Below, piece after piece: positions 1-20,700 of a stretch of 64,000 bases of DNA. Made by a program: the position numbers and the translations under genes. Numbering within the stretch: the stretch's first letter is position 1; each line of letters opens with the position of its first letter. The stretch lies in the NCBI GenBank assembly GCA_949130485.1, contig OX422185.1, positions 6,487,127-6,551,126 on the forward strand, in the 5' to 3' direction. Under the pieces are notes generated by a model. That model had not been told where the DNA came from. It saw only the letters and a list, made by a program, of their open reading frames with translations, and searched no databases. The DNA is from Agelas oroides (lineage: Eukaryota > Porifera > Demospongiae > Agelasida > Agelasidae).

Positions 1-1649
1 GGCACCGCCCCCCCTACGTCCACCTCGCATCCACCTGACGTCATTCACGTGACAAGTGTTCCCAGGCCTTCCCCGTTTTTCGCGCTCTTCCGCCTCCGTG
101 TATTATATTGAACGCAAACCAAAGAACAAAAACGGGGTGGGCCTGGGAACGACTAAGACTAAGACTTCTGCTGTGTAACTTAAGAACGTAGTACACGTAC
201 TTATTATATGGTATCACTATTTCAAGCACCAGGCCAGAAGTTATACACACGTTTGAAATGTAGCGTAGGATCAAAATGAATTAGCGTACTGAGCACATTT
301 AGGCGCACGTAAATTTGGAATGGTAAGGTCGATTCAAAAGTAAACGTATCATTGTGATCAGCGACAAAGTGCTCTTTGCTGGTATAATAATCTCATTTTC
401 GATTAAGTATGACATGAGCACCCACCCAGGAGCAAGCTTTGCATGGACTTTTGAAAGCACAGCGCTATGGATAAGCTTTTTTCCTACTGTATTCACCTGT
501 TTTATGTCCGTGACACAGTAGGCGTGTCCCTTAATCAGTCCACACTCCAGAACACCTTCCGGTGAGTCCCCCTCAGAGAGCTAAGAGAGGGGGAGAATGG
601 AGAAAATGGAGAGGAGAGGTGGGGAGTAATAATGGTAGAGGGGGACACGGAATATATGGATAAGAGACTGGGGAAAGGGGGTAGGCTTCACAAGCAGGCA
701 CCTCACTCCATACTGCAAGAGGAAACTTAGGAGGAGAGCCTGGGAACAAGGCTAGCGTACAGGGTAGGTGGGAGGAGGGGAGAGGTGATGGGCGAGGGAC
801 CAGGAAGATAGGAATAGGGAAGGGGAGAGGTACGTAACAGGTGAGTGGATAAGGGGAGGACGAGAGAGGTAATGGTCAAGATCACAGGGGAGATGAGGGA
901 GGAGGAGGAGGAGGGCAAGACGCAAGAGATAATGAGTGAGGGGACGGAGGAGATGGGGAGAGGAGAGAGGAATAGTACAATGAAGTGTGTATCCTCAACT
1001 CACTGAGATGGCACAGCTGATAAATGCACTGCGTTCATGTGCCTTCTCCATTTTCTGCAGTGGAGAAAATAAACCCATCATGTGGTTGTTCCATAGCCTC
1101 GTTCCCAAGCCTTTGTCCATTCGTTGCTTGCAGTACAAACTGGCTGTGCAAATTTCGTACTGCAAGCAACAAACACGTGAAGGCCTGGGAATGAGGCTGG
1201 TTCCATATAATATCTACCCCAGATATTTCAGTGTATCATCCTTCGGCATTCTATCTTTGTGGGGCGAGAATGAGCAAATAGCTGCCTAAAAAGAGAATTT
1301 CAAAGTCTAACAGTCAGAGGCAATCCTAACCAGAGATAGATGATCACACATGCAGACATTACAGCCGTTTGTCCAACAAGGGCAGTTTCTTTCGCTTCAC
1401 TTGAAGTCTCCTCCCCAGGCCTTACAATCAAGTCTCCTCCTCACATTATGTGAACATGGAAGCTTAGGGATGGCCCCAGGCCTTACAATCAGCAGGTTCA
1501 CCAGCATCAAGCTGCCATACTTGAGCAGGTCTCACTCATAGAGGCCTCCATCTCGCTCATTTGCATGTGCTGAGCTTGGAAGCTCTACTCACACTGTAGA
1601 TGGCTGTTTTTGTACAGCTGTCTTCCAGAGTGCCATAATAGGATCACTT
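1..1649. other. No recognisable exon; purine-rich and repeat-derived DNA
   Basis: No protein family could be recognised on either strand. 560-970 is strongly purine-biased (GGGGAGAGG-type runs) and yields only low-complexity reading frames. Pieces of the recurrent CCTGGGAACGAGGCT-type repeat occur near 130-150, 737-757 and 1094-1198. The 3' part of the calpain gene should lie on this side, but no His/Asn catalytic exon is visible, so it probably continues beyond the window. Confidence 0.5.
1094..1198. repeat. Foldback MITE, TAGCCTCGTTCCCAGGCC-type family
   Basis: The sequence starts TAGCCTCGTTCCCAAGCC and ends with the near inverted complement GGCCTGGGAATGAGGCT. Inner arms GTTGCTTGCAGTAC and GTACTGCAAGCAAC extend the hairpin. 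It belongs to the same family as the copies at 6317-6369 and 11808-11895. No clean target duplication was found at this copy. Confidence 0.7.
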
Positions 1650-1685
1650 TATGAAAGCTCCCTCCTCAAATGACATCATGCTCAC

Positions 1686-2298
1686 TTTACGAGTTACGTT
1701 GATGAACTTAACCTTAAACAGTTGCTTTCTCTTTTCTTCATCAGTTGAGTACCCACCATCTCGTAACTCAATGGGCTCATTCACACCCCCAGTGAAGTCT
1801 ACCATGGCATCTCCTGTCAGACCTCCACTCAATGCTTCATAACATCCTGCTAGCCTTAGGGAGGGAGGGAGGGAGGGAGGGAGGGAGGGAGGGAGGGAGG
1901 GAGGGAGGGAGGGAGGGAGGGAGGGAGGGAGGGAGGGAGGGAGGGAGGGAGGGAGGGAGGGAGGGAGGGAGGGAGGGAGGGAGGGAGGGAGGGAGAGTAG
2001 GTGGGTAGTAGGAGGAAACGAGGAAGGAAGGAGGGTGGGTGGGTGGGGGGGGGGGGGGTTGGGGGAGGGAATGTTGGTATTTGTAGGTGGGAGGAAGAGA
2101 GGGAGAGAGCTCACTTGGCATAAGCCTTCTCTAGCAAAGCACTCCAGAACTCGTTCTTGCTTTTACTCTTCATGTACACTAGCTCTCCATCCTTGGTAGG
2201 CAGGTAGTCGTCAATGACCACATCCACCCACTCTCCTAGCCGCCAGAAGTGGAAGTGAAAGATACCAGCATAGTGCTCTGGATGGTCGTCATCCCAGT

Positions 2299-2345
<47 letters not shown>

Positions 2346-2460
2346 ATGTGTAGATGTGCATGTGTGTGTGCATGTATAGATATGCATTGTGTGTGTGTTG
2401 TGTGTGTGTGTGTGTGCGTGTGTGTGTGCATGTGAGTGTGTGTGCGCGTGTATGTGTGCA

Positions 2461-2498
<38 letters not shown>

Positions 2499-4568
2499 AG
2501 TGGATCAAAAATGCACCTATTAACATTTTGTTGCTTGAATCTTTGCAATAGTTAATGATCCTTGAGATGGGTACCATGGAAACCTATTGGGAGGTTTTCT
2601 GAAGGTATGCCTGGCACAAATTCAGGATATTCTATATTGTTGACATTCAATGCTTCAGGGCCATAGGAAGAGGTCCAGCCACCCGACCAAGCACCAACTC
2701 ACCCAGAGAAAGTTTGAGAAACTATCGTGCGACAAAAACATCATCATCATGTGCTCTTGGGTTAAGGCACTGAAGACAGAAACTTAGTAACTCTGACAGC
2801 AACCCGTTATATCACCACTGAAATTTAAGCAGCAGTTTTTGCCTCAGAATGGCCTCAGAAGCGCTTCTTGTTTGTATGAGGACATGCTCCTAGACCACTA
2901 CATGACTGTGCTTCTCACGCTAACTGTATGGGAGTCTCTGGACTGCTTGATCATTCAAAGATTGTTTCCTATGGGCTGTTGTTGGCTTCTGTGTGCATAT
3001 TAAAAGCCAAAAGATGACCTCAATCCCAGCTAGGTGTCATAGTCAGGCGACATGGGCGTGTTTCCCACCTCAGGTGCTGCCTGAGTACAAAGCTGGGATA
3101 TGCCACACCTCCAGATATTTATCTGAAGTCTAAGTATGTCACTGCGCAACCTTCCCTCTGCTCTAGTAACGCAACCTTCCCTCTGCTCTAGTAACGCAAC
3201 CTTCCCTCTGCTCTAGTAACGCAACCTTCCCTCTGCTCTAGTAACGCAACCTTCCCTCTGCTCTAGTAACGCAACCTTCCCTCTGCTCTAGTAACGCAAC
3301 CTTCCCTCTGCTCTAGTAACGCAACCTTCCCTCTGCTCTAGTAACGCAACCTTCCCTCTGCTCTAGTAACGCAACCTTCCCTCTGCTCCAGTAACGCAAC
3401 CAACAAAAGCTTTTGGTATAGGCCTGGGAATATATGAGTAATACACAAGGTAGAATTACATATCTATGGTACTTGGTAACAATTTTAAGAGCAATATTAA
3501 ATATTCGGACGTTTTGATGCCGGTTTTATCACCATGTATGACGCCATCATTCATTTGATGACATCATTATCATGGTGCACTCACCTGATGCTTCCATTGT
3601 GGCACCACTTTATCCCAGAGCTTCTTCTCCAAGGCAAGGGCCGAGCAGGCAGCCACGAACCAGCAGTTGCCCAGCGCTCCCTGGTTGAGGTCTGTGCTGC
3701 TCAGTCCCTCAACTACCAAGTGAGGATTGTCACACAGCTCCTGGTAAGGGAGGGAGGGAGGGGAGTGATATTGGGACGGAGAGAGGAAAGAGAGACAGAG
3801 GAGAAAAGGGAGGACAAGGGGTTATATATCATAGCAGGTACTGCCCTTGCTCAGAACAAGAGTGGGCTATGTAACTCAGTGCAGTGCTATTTACCAAGAA
3901 CATATGTTACTGGACATTTCTACTCGTTACCAGATGTGAAACAAGCCATTCTGGTTTGGAACCCTTCAGTTATGATTCACTGCCCTGAATTCCTTTTAAC
4001 CCCCCTCCATCTCTCGCCACCTTCTTTCCCCCTCTGCCACTCCTTCCACTCTCCCTCCATCCTTACTTCTGTCACGCTCTCCCCCACCTTCCATACCACG
4101 ATTCCTCCCTCCATTCATTTCTCTCCCCCCACCTCTCCTCTCTCTGTCACTCCATTCTTGGAAAGAGGAGGGAGGATAAGTGGGTGGGGGGGGAGGGAAC
4201 AAAGGAGGAAGGGGTGTAGGGAAGGAGAGAGTGAAGAAGGGGATTGGGGGAGGAGTGGAGGGAGAGATATGGATGGAAAGAAAGGATCCCTTTCCCCTAC
4301 CCTCCCCCCCCCCCCCCCTCCTTCCTTTTCATCCTTCTCACCCTTCCTTCCTTCGCTTTCTTTTCTCCTTCCCTCCATCCCACATTCCCTCCTCCCTCTT
4401 CCTATTCCTCACCCGAGGTCTCTTCCACACAATGTCATACTTGTCAGTCCCACTCCGGAACAGCGACTGGGAACTTGGTGGGAACTCAGGGTCTGTGAAC
4501 AACTCTCCCCTCTGCTGATGATCACGCTTCAGCTTAGAGTAGTTCTGGTTGCGGTAATGACGCACCAT
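1686..4568 (-). CDS. Calpain-5-like cysteine protease, 5' part of gene (4 exons)
   Basis: Exons by GT/AG and phase: 4568-4413, 3740-3585, 2299-2115 and 1854-1686, about 222 codons. Calpains are calcium-dependent cytosolic cysteine proteases. Exon 1 has the N-terminal [15 protein letters not shown] and YDIVWKRP motifs. Exon 2 carries the catalytic cysteine in [15 protein letters not shown]. Exon 3 has [20 protein letters not shown] and [14 protein letters not shown]. Exon 4 has GCYEALSGG and DFTGG, the start of core subdomain PC2. The motif wording is closest to calpain-5/6 (TRA-3 type), which is family knowledge applied by eye. ATG at 4568 gives a plausible start ([10 protein letters not shown]). 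The last donor could be 1686 (AAA|GTGAGC, stronger) or about 1713. The His and Asn catalytic residues, and the C2-like domains expected in calpain-5, are not in the window. Introns contain (GGGA)n, (TG)n and a 25-bp minisatellite. Confidence 0.88.
1858..1995. repeat. (GGGA)n tetranucleotide tract, ~34 units
   Basis: Uninterrupted AGGG units fill nearly the whole calpain intron between exons 3 and 4 and start three bases from the acceptor. The plus strand is G-rich, so the gene's transcript carries CCCT repeats. Reading frames through it (poly Ser/Leu/Pro) are artefacts. It could form G-quadruplex on the template strand. Confidence 0.95.
2301..2499. repeat. (TG)n microsatellite, interrupted
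   Basis: Two long TG runs (about 2301-2344 and 2400-2498) are separated by imperfect TG/CATG sequence. They lie directly upstream (minus strand) of calpain exon 3, so the acceptor is preceded by a CA repeat rather than a usual pyrimidine tract. Confidence 0.95.
3145..3401. repeat. 25-bp minisatellite, 10 full copies
   Basis: Head-to-tail 25-bp units begin CGCAACCTTCCCTCTG at 3145, 3170, 3195 and so on to 3370, followed by a 7-bp partial unit. Units are nearly identical; the last has a T-to-C change. There are no spacers. It lies in calpain intron 2. Confidence 0.97.
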
Positions 4569-10934: not shown

Positions 10935-13900
10935 TTAATCTTGAGTCACTGGATCTGATTCAATTCCATGTTTTTGGGCAAGTTTCAAGATCACTTTCTC
11001 TTGGCGGCGGCTGTTACTGCACAGCTCCAAAACAGCTTGTTTCATCTCATTGTTCTGTTCACAGAGACAAGAAACAAGTTTTTTCATTTCTTTGTTCTCC
11101 CTGGAGAGCTTAGAGACAGACATCTCCAGTTCATTTATGGCTTCTTTCATTGTTTCTTGTTTATGATCCCGGAGAGTGCCTTTGCCAAGGCTTCGAATCA
11201 CTTCTCTAACTTCTGCATCATCCTGGCATTGTTTTCGGGCACACTTCCTTTCTTGCGATCTCTGAAATGGAAAGTAATAGACCAGATGCAGGCTACAAAC
11301 AGAAATCTCGACATAAATAATATATGCAGTTACTGGGGGATATAATAAACAAAACCTGCTTGAGATAGCTATACTAAAAGCACCAAGATGCCTACCTCCA
11401 CCACAGCAATGAACTCTTCGCCAGAAGTATACTTTTGTCCCCATAGCTGCAACTTTTGCCACACACTCAGATCATGGTACACCCAAAAACTTTCTGTGTT
11501 GTTGGTACACAGTAAGTCGTGTAGTTTTTTAGGAAGGTACTTATGGAACTGATCTCTGAAACCTTCTATAGTTAGGATGAAATCCACCTGAATATCCATG
11601 AGAAATTAAAAGAAAAGTGTATAATACAGTGTTTCTTTTCTACACCATTCAGTAGAGTGTACCAACCTTCAGTGAAATTCGCCTTAGTTCAGCTTCTTCC
11701 TGGATCTCCTTGACGTCACCAACTGCCAAACCAGTCTGTGGGAAAATGAAGTAACAACACTGACTTATACCCAGACATCTAAGTTTTCTTCACTTGTAGT
11801 CAGGAGGTAGCCCCGTTCCCAGGCCCTGCCCAGCTTTCCGTCACTTGCAGTACTGAAAGCGACAGAAACCTGGGCGGGGCCTGGGAACGAGGCTAGTCAG
11901 GAGGCTAGCTGAGACAACTGTTAAGTCAGAAACCAACCAGCAGATTTGTCAACAATACTGGAACCAGAACCAGGAATACGATCCACAACAGGAAGGAGAC
12001 TGAGGGATATGCTATATCTGGCAGACCCAGATCTCCAGGTTGTTGGCGAAAGGTAGTGTCAAAGTCAAATTCCCCTGCAGACATGGTCATTGTTTTGATC
12101 AGTGCTCGTGCTGGGGTGCCAAATGGAGTTCGCTGTAAGTAGGAGATGGACAGGTTATTAAGCACTTAATATACATACATCAAAATGTAGATAGTGTATG
12201 CAGAAGAAGGAAGGCTACCATGATATCGGGCAGATGAAATAGCATGTAGAATGCAAGGCCAAATGAAGTAATCAGCAAAAGTGACAGAACGATTGTTTTC
12301 ACAAACGTCTTGAAGATGCTGGTGAACATAACAACATAGATTCCAGCTCCGGGCAACTTGTCAACAAAAAGGGTTAAGATGATCCATCCAAGAAATACAG
12401 AGACTGTTCCAAACTCCCATTGCCTTTCATGAGGGCACAAGCACGGATTGGAATATACCCACACAAAGTTCAATGTGCAGAAGTAAAGGGTAAGCTCCAT
12501 CCAGTTGATCCAGTGCTTAAAGTAGGCATGTCTGAGTCTCATAAACTGAAAAAGCTCAAGAATAATTCTGATGCAAGTTAGCAGTAGGACAATAATAGAT
12601 GCTCCATAGACAAACCGGTAATTCTGCACACTGAGACCTAAATGATCAACAAGAGCAAATACGGTATAAATACATAATCACACCTTCTTCATATCCTTGC
12701 TATCCCCCCACCCACCCACCCAGGCTTTATCTGATTTCAGACCTTGTTCCACCACTTTTTACTAGTTTGTTGCTTGATATCAAAGCATAGCAGAGATACT
12801 ACACTTCAGATGTAAAATCTATACTGCACTGAGTACATGACTAACTCTGCATGAAGGTTATTTGGTTACTTCCATTTAAGGAATTTTGTGGTATTAAGGT
12901 GCATCATCCACTTCTCTCATACCAACACTTGGATATCCAGAAGCTGCTTCTTTCAGTCATTTTGTACATCAAATAATATTTGCCTCTTCAATTTGGTAAG
13001 TATTCAAGATGGCAGCCCAAAAGTAATCAGCTGATAAACGAAGAGGAAGGTTATCTGTTACTATCTTGAGCTCAGAAAAAACCTGCCAACATTTTGACTG
13101 AATGTTCCAGTTGTCATCAGGGCGAAAGTGAAGAAGTGTAAACATTAGAGCCATGCACTACCACGGATAGACATCATTGGAGGTCAAAGGTCGGTGAGGA
13201 TTGCTCTTCCCTCCCTGCCTCCTCATCACAGCAGTCCAGTAACCAGCAACTTCCAGTTGGTTGAAGCACTCCTCTGAGGGTGTCATCTGGATATGCAGGG
13301 CCTCCTTCACCAACAGCCATGGTCCAGCACTGTTGTTTCCTCCCAGCTATTTTCCAAGCTCTACAGATAACTTTCCACTTCGTTCATGCAGGAGCCAACT
13401 GAGAAGCCACTTAAAGTTAATCAGCTGATAGCTCACATCTTCAGATGCTCAAGCAGTAGCAAGCAGATATTGAATCCCCATAGTTCAGCTGCCAGATGGT
13501 TCATTAGCACCCTCTGACAAAAAAAGTTTATCACCACACTAGCACTACATACAACACTGCTATTGCTAGCAACAAAATTCCATTTTAGGTTACTGGTTGA
13601 GTAGGCAAAATGACACCATTTGCATAGTAGTAGCTAGGCAAAATTGCACGGATTCTTTCCTGAAAGCCTTTGTGTGGCCATGGTGCCTGGTAAATCACAT
13701 GAAGCAGAATGTCACACATGGTTTCACCATTTTGAGACAGCTTAACTACAAACATTATATACCTTCACAGTCATCAGGTCCAGTTCCGTTAAAGGTACCA
13801 CTGAGGACTTTCACACCTGAAAAAATATAATAGTTAGCCATACAGGATATTGAATGTAATATCAGGTTGTGCATGACATACTTTACTGCGTTTCCCAATT

Positions 13901-14750
13901 AATCACAGGAGATGGATCACTCAAGTAAAAACACAATATTTTAGTCTTTTACAGGGTTTCAGTGAAACTCACATGTGGGATGCAAAGGATCAAGTACTAC
14001 CAGTGCATAAGCCGTCAGGAAGATGAGAAAGATGGCATAGAATGACAGATTGCAGAGGTACACAAATCGTCCATACTTCTTCCATTTTAGTTTAATGAGG
14101 CTGGAAACAACTGGGTGCTTTAGTAGATTAAGCCGTCCATGTTTCACCTGCAAATACACAATACACTAATACCTTGGGCCACTGTACAAAGTATGATGCA
14201 TCACATTGGTAGACAATAGCACAACATTCCTCTGCAGTAAAGTTTTACAAAGTGACAGCAAAGTTCTAAGACTGTGAGAGCAAGTTAGACTGCATTTATA
14301 CTGTTGCATGCGCAATCTGTAGATAACTCTACAGGTTCTATAGGTTCAGCTAACAGTTGTGCTGTACATTATGTATCTACGTGGGATAAAGTGATAGCAT
14401 GCAAACTAGGGGCTTCCTGGAGCTTTCTTCCCTGACCGAATGCAGCATAAGCAACATTTATGGGCAAAGTGAAAATAAGACAGGACATGCAATTGAACAC
14501 ACAACCATCAAAGGAGTATGCTTGTCCTATCCAGCACAAGAGGTGGTGGACAGCTATCTATGCATTGAATGCTAATGTACAGAAACTTCACAAAGTTGGC
14601 CTCTTCATACAGCTCATGCATGCTTGCATTGTTGTGAGCTACAGATTCAAATTCAGCAGGGCACAAGGATTTTGTTGCTTGAACTTAACTAGGTGAGTTG
14701 GTACACCAAATGATGCTCAGTTTGTAGGTTCTGTGCATATCAATGAAGGA

Positions 14751-14781
<31 letters not shown>

Positions 14782-17700
14782 GGGGGAAGGGGACTGGGTG
14801 CAAGTCTAGAGCAAAGTACACAACAGGTTTGTCTTCCATTTCATTGATTTGCTTGAGTACAGATACACTACAATAAATTACAGGCAATGCTACTGAGGTC
14901 TAGCATGTTTTATCCTGATGGCAAGATCTCTACAGAGAACCTATGGTTTGTTTTTGTAGTATAGCTTGTTCTTCTGAGCATCATTGGTCTTGTGTCCTAA
15001 TACACTCACTCAGTCTGAGTGCTTTAGTCAGTGTGGCTGAAAAGCAAGAAAATCAAGACCAGCAACCAGCAGCAAACCAATGACCTCTCATGCTGCCACA
15101 TGACCATACCTTGAGGCATAACACTGAGTTGCCTGTACCATAATGTCTTATCTCTGTTTCTTTGTATGGTGTTCAGCTATCTGTGTGAAGTCTTCTCTTC
15201 CACTGTGTTTGGCTGCCTGTGTCAAGAATTCACCTTGCTCTTTCTCATGCTTTTATTTTGAAGAGATGGCCAGCACCAATTAAGGCATAAGAGACCAGTG
15301 GAAAGCCAGCATTTGCTGGAGATTGAACCTAGGTACCTTGACTTTGAGCTGCCAATGCATTCACCACTGAGCTACAGCTGCATGCAACCACCAACTGCTC
15401 TAAAAACATAATTTTACTTTCTACAGGATTCTGTGTTTGTTGTCTTAACAATTTGAACACTGTAGGTGCCCCACTTGTTCAAATAGTGAACCTGTGATAG
15501 GATGGCGTAATGCATGTTGCTGAATCAACTTACCATCGCTGATAGTGGATGTGTATGCTCTTCAGAAGGAGAAATTCTGTGGTGAGATGAACAACTAGTC
15601 ATATCTAAAATCAAACATACTGAACCGCTCCTAGCTACTACAAGTTTGCAGGTACTGGACAATAACGTGTGCAATACACAATGGACTAATACTGTTATAG
15701 GAATTAAGAAATGCAGAAGTGATCAAGTGGAAAGTAGGAATCAAGAGTGTAAAGCTACAATAGCTACATGCAGTCGGAGAGATGTCCAGGATTGAAAGAT
15801 GTATTTTATTTGCAGAGTTGAATGGCGAAAAATACATTGAGATCCAGCCAGGATTCGAACCTGGGTCCTCTGAATTCCAGTCAGATGCTCTTACCAACTG
15901 AGCCACTGGAGCTCTGGCATTGGAGCAGAGGATAGATGGCATTATTCCATAGACGCTGTTCGATTCTCAGGCTGGATCTTTCTTAGGCTAACTCTGCATG
16001 ATTAGTACCGAGGTACTTTGCTGCCACCAGCGAACTGGGTAATAGCAGCAGCCACTTTGTATGTGCCGTCAGAACCCCCAATTATAGGACAGTGTCTATG
16101 GATAAATGCCATCTATCCTCTGCTCCAAATGCCAGAGCTCCAGTGGCTCAGTTGGTAAGAGCATCTGACAGGAATTCAGGTTCAAATCCTGGCTGGATCT
16201 CAATGTCCAGGATTGCCATCAAAGGCTGAGTAGTGCCTTTGATCTCCTTTTGTTCTTTCTTTGTTCTCTAATCCTAACCCCAATCCTAACCCCACCCCCT
16301 AACAATGCACTGTAGGCAAACCTGGACATGTATAGAGATGCAGGGCTGATCACCTACTGCATAAGTTCTTCTTACCTAACCATTTCTTGAATGAACTCGT
16401 AATTGAAAGTAAAGAACTGGTCCTTCTTCTGTGTCTGATCACTGTCAAGGAAACCTGCTTCTTCATCTTGATTCAACTGTGGAGACTTAGAGGAGGTTGG
16501 AAGCTAGTAATTATTGATGCGCACGGGATAGCAATTAGTGCTACGTGATAACGTAATCATACGAGCTGCTATTGAGGCCCATAGTGAAATGTGAAATCAA
16601 TGGCGCCCTCGCTTGTTTGGAACGAAACTTGCTCTGTGGACACCGCCAGGTGAGCTCTAGATCGCCCGCTATAATCCTTCATTATAAGTGAAGCATTCGA
16701 GCGGTTCCTTGGGACTCCCCTCAGACTACTCTGCCCATCATCAAATGCCACAGCTGGTGATCTAGCTTTCACATGGCAGTATCTACTGAGCAAGTTTCGT
16801 TCCGAGAAAGCAAGGGCGCCGTAGCGTAAATCGATTTCACATTTCAGTATGGGCCTCAATGGCAGCCCATATGATTACGTCATCACGTAGCACTAATTGC
16901 TATCCCGCGCACATTACTAATTACTAGCTCCCAACCTCCTCTGGTGGAGACTGAAACACAGATGGCCTCTGCTTTTCCTTTTTAATACAACGGTTCAGAG
17001 CTTCTTCAGCCACATCTGCAGAAACATGAAATACCACTAGGGAGATGCTTGATCATTGTGGGGCAAGCCTGAGCGAGCTGCTGATTTCATACTTTGTCAT
17101 GGCACACAGACCATGCATGCAGCATTAGCAGCAGGGTTTGTCAGTCAGAGCAGCTACACAGGCATGGGCTGAACTTTACACTCAAATCATGAACTGAAAA
17201 CCTGCCCTATATACAAGCATCGTTCATGCATGTCTGTGACTGAGCAGCCTGCCTTCACAGGTAGCCATGCACACTTCAATTTCAGTTGTCTTCGCTCCCA
17301 GTCTCTTTCATGCCAAACATTACAGTCTGGCAGTAGCCCTTCACTCTCACTCTCGCTAAGCTGGCATGTGGCCATGGACACAAAATTCAACCTTCGAGAA
17401 ACATTTGCTCATTTACGGTGAGTGGCTGGTCCAAGCAAGCAAGCAAGCATACACACACACGTGTGCAAAGCAGTCATGCTAGTGTGGGGCTCACTCAGGC
17501 TCACCCCAAATAGGATCTACACCAATAATCAGGTCTACGAGATGATTGTGTATAAGAGATCGACTTACTTGGCAACCTAGTAACCAGTTTCTGCATTACT
17601 GATGAAGACAGAACGGTATTCCACTGACTGCTATGCACAAGTACCATTGCAGCTTTACTGTAGACAAAAATAACGTCATTTACAGAATCTGATAATGTTT

Positions 17701-20700
17701 TCGCTTATGCATGCACAATTCCTACACCTGTTTCCCTCGTCAGCAGCAAGTAACAGACAGTTCACCATATTTGGAACAACTTCTTCATCTACTTGGAATG
17801 TTGCTTTCTTCACTTTCTGTTGTCTACCATACATGACCTTTGCCCCTTTCTCCACTAGAGCAGCAACGATGCTGATGTTAGCCTTCTTCTCAATCGCCAA
17901 AACAAGAGGGGTTTTCTGAAAAGAAAGATCAGCTTATTCAGATTTGTGATTGATTTCAGAATTAGTGGTCAATTTGTAGCCTTACTAGATTACATAAGTT
18001 CATGATACCTCATGGAGCATTTCAAGACACGTAAGACAGCTTAGCTACATAGAACCCCACACACAGTTAAAAAGACATTCTTCATATTAACCCACGGCAG
18101 TATCAATATGGGGTTTGGAGCAATGACAGACGATTTTCAACCAGGGGGATTTACTGCAGTTAAAAACAAATACACACGGCGTCAGGCAGCCATGTGCGAA
18201 TACACGTAGCTAAGACCCTACTGCATTTGTTTTACCTACTAGTAGTTCTTATGCGCATGCGCAGTAGGTCTGCTGAAACTTATCGCTGAACTTTGCACAG
18301 GTTTTGTTATGCAGTTAGTCGTGATGTAGATACAGCATATTGAGAGAAAAGAGAACCACCATGATATTAGTACATATGGAAATGTTGGAGTACATTTCGT
18401 CTGCTTCACACAAAAGGTGTTATCACCATGTCAGCCACCGTAGTTGCTATGCAGGGCCTTCACGGATGGCAGAGACCACCTTCCGAACAATACCGGTAGA
18501 TTCTGCCTTCCAAATGGTGGAGACTGCCTTCTGAATGATCTAGACCTCCTTCCAAATGGCACCCGTTTGCGTTGCGTGTGAGAGATCGCCTTACTATTGT
18601 CTATAGTATATCGAGCAATTTTGGCAATAATAATGCTTCATAGGCATGTATACTATTCGTCTGAAAACTTTTTTACCACACTTAGTGACATGCCCTCCAG
18701 TGAGTACACCACCACTCCCCTAGCACACAGTGTTGAGAGTCAACAGAGAAGTGCTAATAATGAGCCGTTCATTTATAAGACACCATACATGTCGACAGCA
18801 TGCAGGGATGCCAGTCTCAGTGAGGAGCCAATTAACCAGCCACTGGTAATTTTTACATTAACTGCTTCTGTTCAAAATAGTTTTCAGAAGAGGTCTTACA
18901 ATACATACATCAGTTTTTCTGGATAACTTACCCCATTAGTATCCATACTATCAATATTTACTCGAGCATCAAGCAACAATTTTACCACAGGATACGAACC
19001 ACCGCTAGCAGCAGCATGAAGGGGTGTTTGGTCCATCTCACAATTCCTTGAGTTTAAGAGAAATGTACCAAATCAAAACAAGACTGGAAGACTGAGGGAA
19101 TGTGAATGTGTACGTAGGCAATTGATTGTCAACATTACTTTTGACTGCTGCATGGCATTGCAGCTTTCCATGCGTTAACAGAACAGGAAATGCTCGGAAA
19201 TAGTTGCTATGGAATGCAAAGAAGCAATCCGAAGTAATTTTTACTAAGCAATCAATTGGCTACATACATGTATGCATTTCCTCAGTCTTTCATGGATGTT
19301 AGGGATATCTACAGTGTCAATCAAGAGCGCATGATGACGTCATTTTTTATTGCGGAGGGAAGAGGAAGAGCGTGTAACTTCCTATTCTGGCCGTGGTGAA
19401 AGCAGAATCCTTCGCGTGTACTATAAATAGCACATCCAGTCCAGTTTTAGCTAGTGTGCGGGTGAAGGGTGAGTAAAAGTAGCTGCAAAACAAACGAGTT
19501 AGAGGCTTATCGGTTGGATAAGGACCACGCGTTACCCAAGAAGACGCTCAAGAGTTTGACTAAAAGGCTACGCGGCCCTCTTCGACTGTCAGGCGTGGAT
19601 AGCATCGTAACACAAAGTTCCTCGAGTCCGACAACCGTTCCTGTGTAGGTAGAACTTGCCAGGTAAGCTTGGAGCGTTCACATCTTGTTGACTATGAGGG
19701 TAACACTGCGTTGTGAGGTCGTAGATCGTGGAACTGCGAACTTGTGCGAAGGTGTGTTCTATTTTTAGTACATGCGGGAGATTCTGCCTGTTTCGAATTT
19801 TTGCCAGTTACACGCTCTTCCTCCTCCCTCCGCAATAAAAAATGACGTCATCATGGGCTCTTGTGTCAATATAGTGTTGTCTACACTCACGTGGAATCAA
19901 GATCAACGCCAGCTTTGATAAACACTTTAACAACATCCTCATGGCCTCCTCTACAAGCCAAGTGTAGTGGAGTTGGGGAGGATCTTTCACAGTCCTTGAC
20001 AGCACTATCCTGGCAGCTGAGTAGCTCCTGAACAACACTAGAAGAAGCATTAGGTATATGCTCTAGTAGCAAAGTGCACATTAGAAGAAAAGTAAAGTGG
20101 AGATCAACTCAAGGTTCCTGGCTTACGCTTTCAGTGCTCTGACCCTGAGCTATGATGACCAGGTTACACCAGCTTACACAATCTTTACACATACTTGCAC
20201 TGAGGGATTTCAGTCTTACATCAGGCTGCTACCTTTATCTTATTTCATGAAATGGGTTACAGGCAAGATGCTCTAAAGCGAATTGCACAGTAGTTAGCTG
20301 ATATCACTTTGTACTTACTGTGCATGTCCATTTTCAGCAGCGACATGTATTGGAAACATATTTTTCTTGTCCTTGATGTTTGGTACCACTCCAATTTGAA
20401 TGAAAACTTTAACAGCAGAAAGGCATCCTCTCTTGGCAGCAATGTGCAGTGGTGTCTCTCCATTACAGTCTTGAGCATTGCATATTCTTTCACCACATTT
20501 ACCTGAAGAAAACGCCTAAGGAAGAAGCCTATAGATGAGAAACCACCTCCAAAGTGTAAAGAAAACATCTACAATGCATAACATCAAGGTATAAATTCTT
20601 ATGGTAGGTGCACCATGGCAAATACACACTCAGGTTTGATGTTCATTGTTTCCTCTGGCCTCTCACAAAGTAGTCCACCCTCGAGGTCAAGTATCCAAGG

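Follow-up and report, generated by a model that had tools for sequence, protein, structure and literature searches.

The locus described here raises the question of what becomes of a coding exon once a transposon has landed in it. Within the 64,000-nucleotide stretch of DNA analysed (the window), a MITE has almost certainly inserted into a coding exon of a TRPA1-like gene. From the gene model, the splice signals and a comparison with paralogues, we consider it likely that the MITE, having hit the linker exon, is now removed from the pre-mRNA as a new GT-AG intron.

The gene lies on the minus strand, from about 27.9 to 10.9 kb of the window, and encodes ankyrin repeats followed by an ion-transport domain, the arrangement by which it was classed as TRPA1-like. 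A protein database search returned 29 matches with 25-44% identity and none above 44%, the best named relatives being TRPA1 homologues from three sponges, Geodia barretti, Amphimedon queenslandica and Dysidea avara; on these matches, the host is probably a demosponge. In a PDB search, NOMPC and ankyrins ranked above TRPA1 because of the ankyrin repeats. The Ion_trans family was matched with 25.8 bits against a cut-off of 25, and the remaining pieces of the gene gave no Pfam match. The exons, of which the first six were rebuilt from splice borders and homology and are bordered by GT-AG, are as follows.

17728..17915, minus strand: ankyrin-repeat exon, from the gene model and homology.
17569..17657, minus strand: exon before the split exon, by eye resembling the ...LIRKMP segment of sponge TRPA1 proteins.
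16936..17015, minus strand: upstream half of the split exon (VAEEALNRC...VFQSPPEE), its final 8 nt MITE-derived.
16376..16476, minus strand: downstream half of the split exon (LNQDEE...FNYEFIQEMV), with donor AG|GTAAGA.
15534..15576, minus strand: next downstream exon, ISPSEEHTHPLSAM.
13973..14147, minus strand: first transmembrane exon, matching sponge TRPA1 in tblastn, with an apparent GTGAGT donor identified by eye.
12216..12623, minus strand: transmembrane exon with the Ion_trans match, ends approximate.
11971..12135, minus strand: pore-region exon, ends approximate, by itself without a Pfam match.

Once 16477-16935 is left out, the six exons from 17915 to about 13973 form one continuous reading frame free of stops, giving the translation ...VTRLPNVAEEALNRCIKKEKQRPSVFQSPPEE/LNQDEEAGFLDSDQTQKKDQFFTFNYEFIQEMVRISPSEEHTHPLSAMVKHGRLNLLKHP..., in which the slash marks the site of the predicted MITE intron. 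A tentative small exon near 14996 was discarded for want of a donor, and 15534-15576 was used instead. The intron between exons 16376-16476 and 15534-15576 contains a palindrome at 15834-16206, composed of two head-to-head tRNA-Ser-like sequences, in which ARAGORN calls one tRNA with anticodon GGA. Of 664 first-look candidates for this palindrome genome-wide, 40 were scored; most of these span roughly half its length and a few almost the whole. The palindrome therefore resembles a tRNA-derived SINE, copies of which are sometimes arranged as inverted pairs.

The inserted element, its duplicated target site and the intron predicted from them are the following.

16488..16943: foldback MITE of 456 bp, palindromic, with terminal inverted repeat (TIR) consensus CAGAGGAGGTTGGAAGCTAGTAATTA.
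16479..16487: target-site duplication (TSD), copy 1, GTGGAGACT, inside the predicted intron and beside its acceptor.
16944..16952: target-site duplication, copy 2, GTGGAGACT, 9/9 identical to copy 1, remaining coding (QSP).
16477..16935, minus strand: predicted new intron of 459 nt, phase 0, GT-AG, with donor G at 16935 and acceptor AG at 16478-16477.
16486..16487, minus strand: alternative in-frame acceptor AG within the TSD, which would give an intron at 16486-16935 and add 15 nt.

The sequence at 16488-16943 is short, shows no sign of coding, carries TIRs, is flanked by TSDs and has many copies in the genome, and is thus a MITE. Its foldback arms match at 90% between 16489-16601 and 16830-16942, and at 80% between 16602-16670 and 16752-16820; on the plus strand its left end reads TAGAGG, compared with CAGAGG in the family. 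When folded as RNA, the minus strand of 16477-16943 reached -311 kcal/mol, whereas shuffled sequences averaged -135 (z -32) and 0/100 of them folded as well. The coordinates that the preliminary description gave for the intron, the foldback element and the 9-bp repeat all hold on re-reading, and its placement of a MITE in a TRPA1-like coding exon is corroborated by the perfect 9-bp TSD at the family's ends and by the gene model. Removal of the element and one TSD copy does, as it had reported, restore one open exon; this reads ...VFQSPQLNQDEE..., is 6 nt shorter than the spliced form and leaves no intron residue.

Such clean flanks argue against the explanation that the MITE entered or adjoined an older intron, in which case no intron would have been gained. 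A copy of the same family elsewhere in the genome, at locus L037, does apparently lie in an intron, which counts in favour of that explanation; paralogues of the gene speak against it as well. The host genome (259 Mb, 141 contigs) gave 53 TRPA-like matches in tblastn, most of them to the first-membrane (TM1) exon. This TRPA-like family is large and occupies contigs C10, C2, C12, C8 and C6, with many members clustered on C10, C2 and C12. Twenty loci were fetched, of which three were the focal gene itself and 17 were paralogues. The homologous linker exon was found by tblastn in 10 of these 17, and none was found by it in the other 7. The matches are individually weak (E 6.6e-4 to 2.8) and were accepted because they have in common the pattern DVAE..RC..NYEFLED and the acceptor, an AG present in 10/10 at the phase-1 position of the focal gene. 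In all ten, the frame is open through the MITE site and no intron occurs there, so the intron at 16477-16935 was probably gained. Two of the exons (L064 and L065) are identical in this part and two (L054 and L055) nearly so, leaving about 8 of the 10 distinct. With these exons intron-less at the site, the explanation by an older intron is very improbable and already largely refuted. A paralogous empty site at the DNA level was not found among the 40 of 100 candidates that were scored; in the same set, the joined flanks matched only the focal locus, besides short repeats at the flank ends. A protein search with the linker exon likewise returned the focal locus only, which says little since this search also misses the known paralogue exons.

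On the minus strand, the predicted intron has its donor, GAG|GTTGGG, at 16935, while its acceptor, CCACAG|, runs to 16477. Compared with the empty site, this splice would add 6 nt and change QSPQLNQDEE to QSPPEELNQDEE; the alternative acceptor would give QSPPEESPQLNQDEE, in frame and with five additional codons. The preliminary description had put the donor inside the terminal repeat with a net gain of six bases in frame, and the gene model agrees with this, the splice at 16935/16477 being itself a prediction. Donors were scored in bits with a donor-site matrix. The MITE donor scores -0.09 bits, while the five GTs in the exon half, which are all the other GTs before the in-frame stop, score -6.1 or lower. 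As the only one of these sites that is not strongly disfavoured, GAG|GTTGGG was counted in favour of splicing. It is weaker than four native donors of the gene (0.72 to 6.53 bits), and its score is equalled or exceeded by 12% of the 1,462 GTs across the 21-kb region. A competing GT at 16924 scores -0.61 bits and would shift the frame.

This weakness of the donor bears on a different reading, which holds that the insertion is a recent exonic MITE that is spliced poorly or not at all, so that the channel is truncated before the membrane domain. The foldback structure is consistent with it, as the hairpin pairs the MITE donor with the pyrimidine tract and could hide both; splicing may therefore need U1 to be bound before the second arm is made. 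Retention of the element would have an immediate effect, as was claimed at the outset, with the reading ...PPEEVGS followed by a stop. Under truncation, the downstream exons would be intact because of the insertion's youth or because of buffering by many paralogues. The 53 tblastn matches to the TRPA-like family are in keeping with such buffering, and the strictly private substitutions in the focal copy, 4 of 456, with a recent insertion. The focal copy has, on the other hand, a terminal branch of 0.0375 in a FastTree tree, which is compatible with an insertion that is not very young; the copy differs from the 40-copy consensus by 7.5%, within a sample range of 5.6-17%. The in-frame pairing of donor and acceptor, with two acceptors that both keep the frame, also speaks against truncation. 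None of the exons read shows frame damage, and those downstream keep open frames with homology to sponge TRPA1. For 894 nt downstream, the simulated chance of no stop ranged from 0.29 (at 3.75% decay) to 0.75 (at 0.9%) for substitutions alone; indels would lower it, and the open downstream exons support function only moderately. Overall, we regard truncation as unlikely.

We prefer removal of the insertion by splicing, for which the following course of events can be proposed. A member of an abundant family of non-autonomous DNA transposons, the MITE entered the linker exon that separates the ankyrin repeats from the first membrane helix, and 9 bp of target were duplicated in the process, as the two flanking copies show. 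The insertion would then leave the pre-mRNA as a GT-AG intron, with the donor supplied by the 5' terminal repeat (CAGAGGAG|GTTGGG) and the pyrimidine tract by the 3' terminal repeat (CCAACCTCCTCT). The AG would come from the host, either inside the TSD (AAG) or just beyond it (CAG), and both positions would keep the frame. Eight MITE bases would be kept in the mRNA, for a net gain of two codons (five with the alternative acceptor) in a linker of variable length.

The family to which the MITE belongs is abundant. Its terminal repeat CAGAGGAGGTTGGAAGCTRRTAATTA has 676 matches genome-wide (339+337) at up to 2 mismatches, compared with 0+0 for a reversed-pattern control, an abundance that chance does not account for. 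A BLAST search with the element gave 632 first-look candidates, of which 40 were scored, including the focal copy; the other 39 were fetched and 10 more were read via 110-bp flanks, making 49 copies read. An 8-9-bp TSD with at most 2 mismatches is present at the ends of 26 of the 39 fetched copies (17 exact 9-mers and one exact 8-mer), and an exact 9-mer in 8 of the 10 flank-read copies. The remaining 13 fetched copies have no TSD by this criterion, and a looser one suggests offset repeats in a few of them. The exact 9-bp TSDs of other copies have their own sequences, which differ from copy to copy.

Splice signals recur within the family. In the 26 copies with a located TSD, a GT occupies the place of the donor in 47 of 52 ends, and the full GAGGTTGG is present in 42 of 52. 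This built-in donor, together with the 676 terminal repeats, raises the possibility that the MITE family is a true introner, with copies kept as introns in many genes, an explanation that is compatible with a single gain at the focal site. With a donor in nearly all terminal repeats and a pyrimidine tract at the opposite end, exonic insertions of such a sponge introner would become introns either way round, roughly a third of them frame-neutral by chance, and several genes would be affected. A first AG lies within 25 nt in 45 of 52 copy-orientations, and in 17 of these 45 the change in length would be divisible by three, close to the third that chance alone would give.

What would distinguish an introner is further exonic insertions, and no clear second one was seen among the 36 other copies tested of the 49 read, in a screen that is weak. 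The spanning-frame test covered 26 of the 39 fetched copies and the 10 flank-read copies. Spanning frames of at least 40 codons numbered 45, in 21 of the 26 copies; the frame at the focal site has 70 codons, as is also found in 3 of the 10 flank-read copies. Of 20 frames from 20 copies searched against Pfam, one gave a match above the cut-off, a ZIP-transporter exon (L037); the screen is weak because the joined focal exons also give no Pfam match. We consider a family-wide introner unlikely, and describe one intron gain rather than a demonstrated introner family. A genome check for further MITE-bounded introns had been suggested in the preliminary description; the donors do recur at the ends of copies, but the 36 copies offered no clear case in this weak screen. 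Two loci deserve mention in their own right. At L037, the MITE starts 31 nt past the apparent CTG|GTAAGC donor of the ZIP zinc-transporter exon. At L041, the MITE lies inside a 130-codon frame that is open in the empty-site reading; Pfam gave only a sub-threshold match to DIRP, and from its motif the frame is presumably that of a LINE reverse transcriptase.

Introns derived from transposons have precedents, one of which is reportedly the maize Dissociation element described by Giroux et al. in 1994. A 2012 review tabulates 35 introns made by transposon insertion in Oryza, Drosophila, Oikopleura and Zea (PMC3443670). The single cases in Drosophila and Oikopleura resemble the present one in that an insertion in a gene is taken out as an intron, exactly or almost exactly (PMC3443670). 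They and the maize case differ in host and probably in transposon family, and the present case is known from DNA alone. A 2022 survey of 3,325 genomes found introners in 175; where animals and land plants are concerned, only two groups had them, both of them animals (PMC9860276). As predicted here, the introners of Micromonas, Aureococcus, copepods and others are non-autonomous elements that constitute the whole intron; for introners, donors carried by the element, acceptors co-opted from the host and the addition of codons have all been described, and the families in the survey comprise 5 to over 2,000 copies, in contrast to the one predicted intron here (PMC9860276). Neither 'sponge' nor 'Porifera' occurs in its main text, and among the open-licence papers searched none appeared to report a sponge introner. 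The locus had been presented as a metazoan case, which holds for a sponge host; it is not the first, given the Drosophila and Oikopleura introns (PMC3443670) and the animal introners (PMC9860276). The mechanism by which a transposon makes an intron is already known, and this is a new, well-resolved instance of it. Since the element, its TSD and the intron-less paralogues come together at one place, both the direction of the gain and its mechanism can be read from the DNA. Well-documented cases of this kind help to show the origin of new introns. Two questions follow directly, namely whether introns arise in this genome from the hundreds of MITEs that have splice signals built in, and how the spliceosome handles a donor and a pyrimidine tract that are paired in one long hairpin.

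MULE transposons make target-site duplications of 8 to 11 bp, and the MITE family is within this range, with exact 9-bp duplications in 17/39 and 8/10 copies. MULE MITEs and the focal family thus have 9-bp TSDs and terminal inverted repeats in common. A search for the MULE domain PF10551 gave 119 matches (150 of 194 candidates scored), 66 of them on contigs C1-C3, on which the 100 listed of the 676 TIR places lie. When these 66 were compared with the 100 places, no MULE transposase was near a terminal repeat, the closest pair being 19.3 kb apart. The earlier MULE-type label, for which the 9-bp duplication was the sole ground, is not supported.

Longer elements between two TIRs were also considered. 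One of these, L068 (4.4 kb, 9-bp TSD CTCATACAC), was rejected as an autonomous parent of the family. Its interior encodes a THAP-DDE transposase, a YqaJ nuclease, a SAP-domain protein and a fourth frame without a Pfam family; the domains matched are THAP, HTH_Tnp_4, DDE_Tnp_4, YqaJ and SAP, and the THAP-HTH-DDE frame is open over 451 codons. The part at 452-4363 runs from GGCC to GGCC, has GGCCGATTTGCACTATA inverted repeats, is flanked by AT and occupies the A|AT|T site of the MITE consensus. As these inner borders have their own repeats and an AT duplication, L068 is an ISL2EU element nested in an ordinary MITE. It fits the definition of ISL2EU, with an AT duplication and ends starting with GG, as given in PMC4482050. 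The MITE itself, with CAGAGG ends and 9-bp duplications, does not; the ISL2EU element, of the PHIS superfamily (PMC4482050), lies inside one copy of the MITE and is not the parent of the MITE. PHIS elements are stated to be absent in sponges (PMC4482050), and the ISL2EU element in L068 would conflict with this statement should the host be a sponge.

Among the other sampled TIR pairs, one has ACGTGCACG twice and one has a 9-mer with 2 mismatches; one further pair was rejected as not being a true pair. At C2:12460130-12466559, two intact terminal repeats of this family enclose 6.4 kb and are accompanied by an 8-bp TSD, TAACCAAC. No MULE-domain or ISL2EU match was found in this interior, and the element is a candidate for a long or autonomous form of the MITE family.
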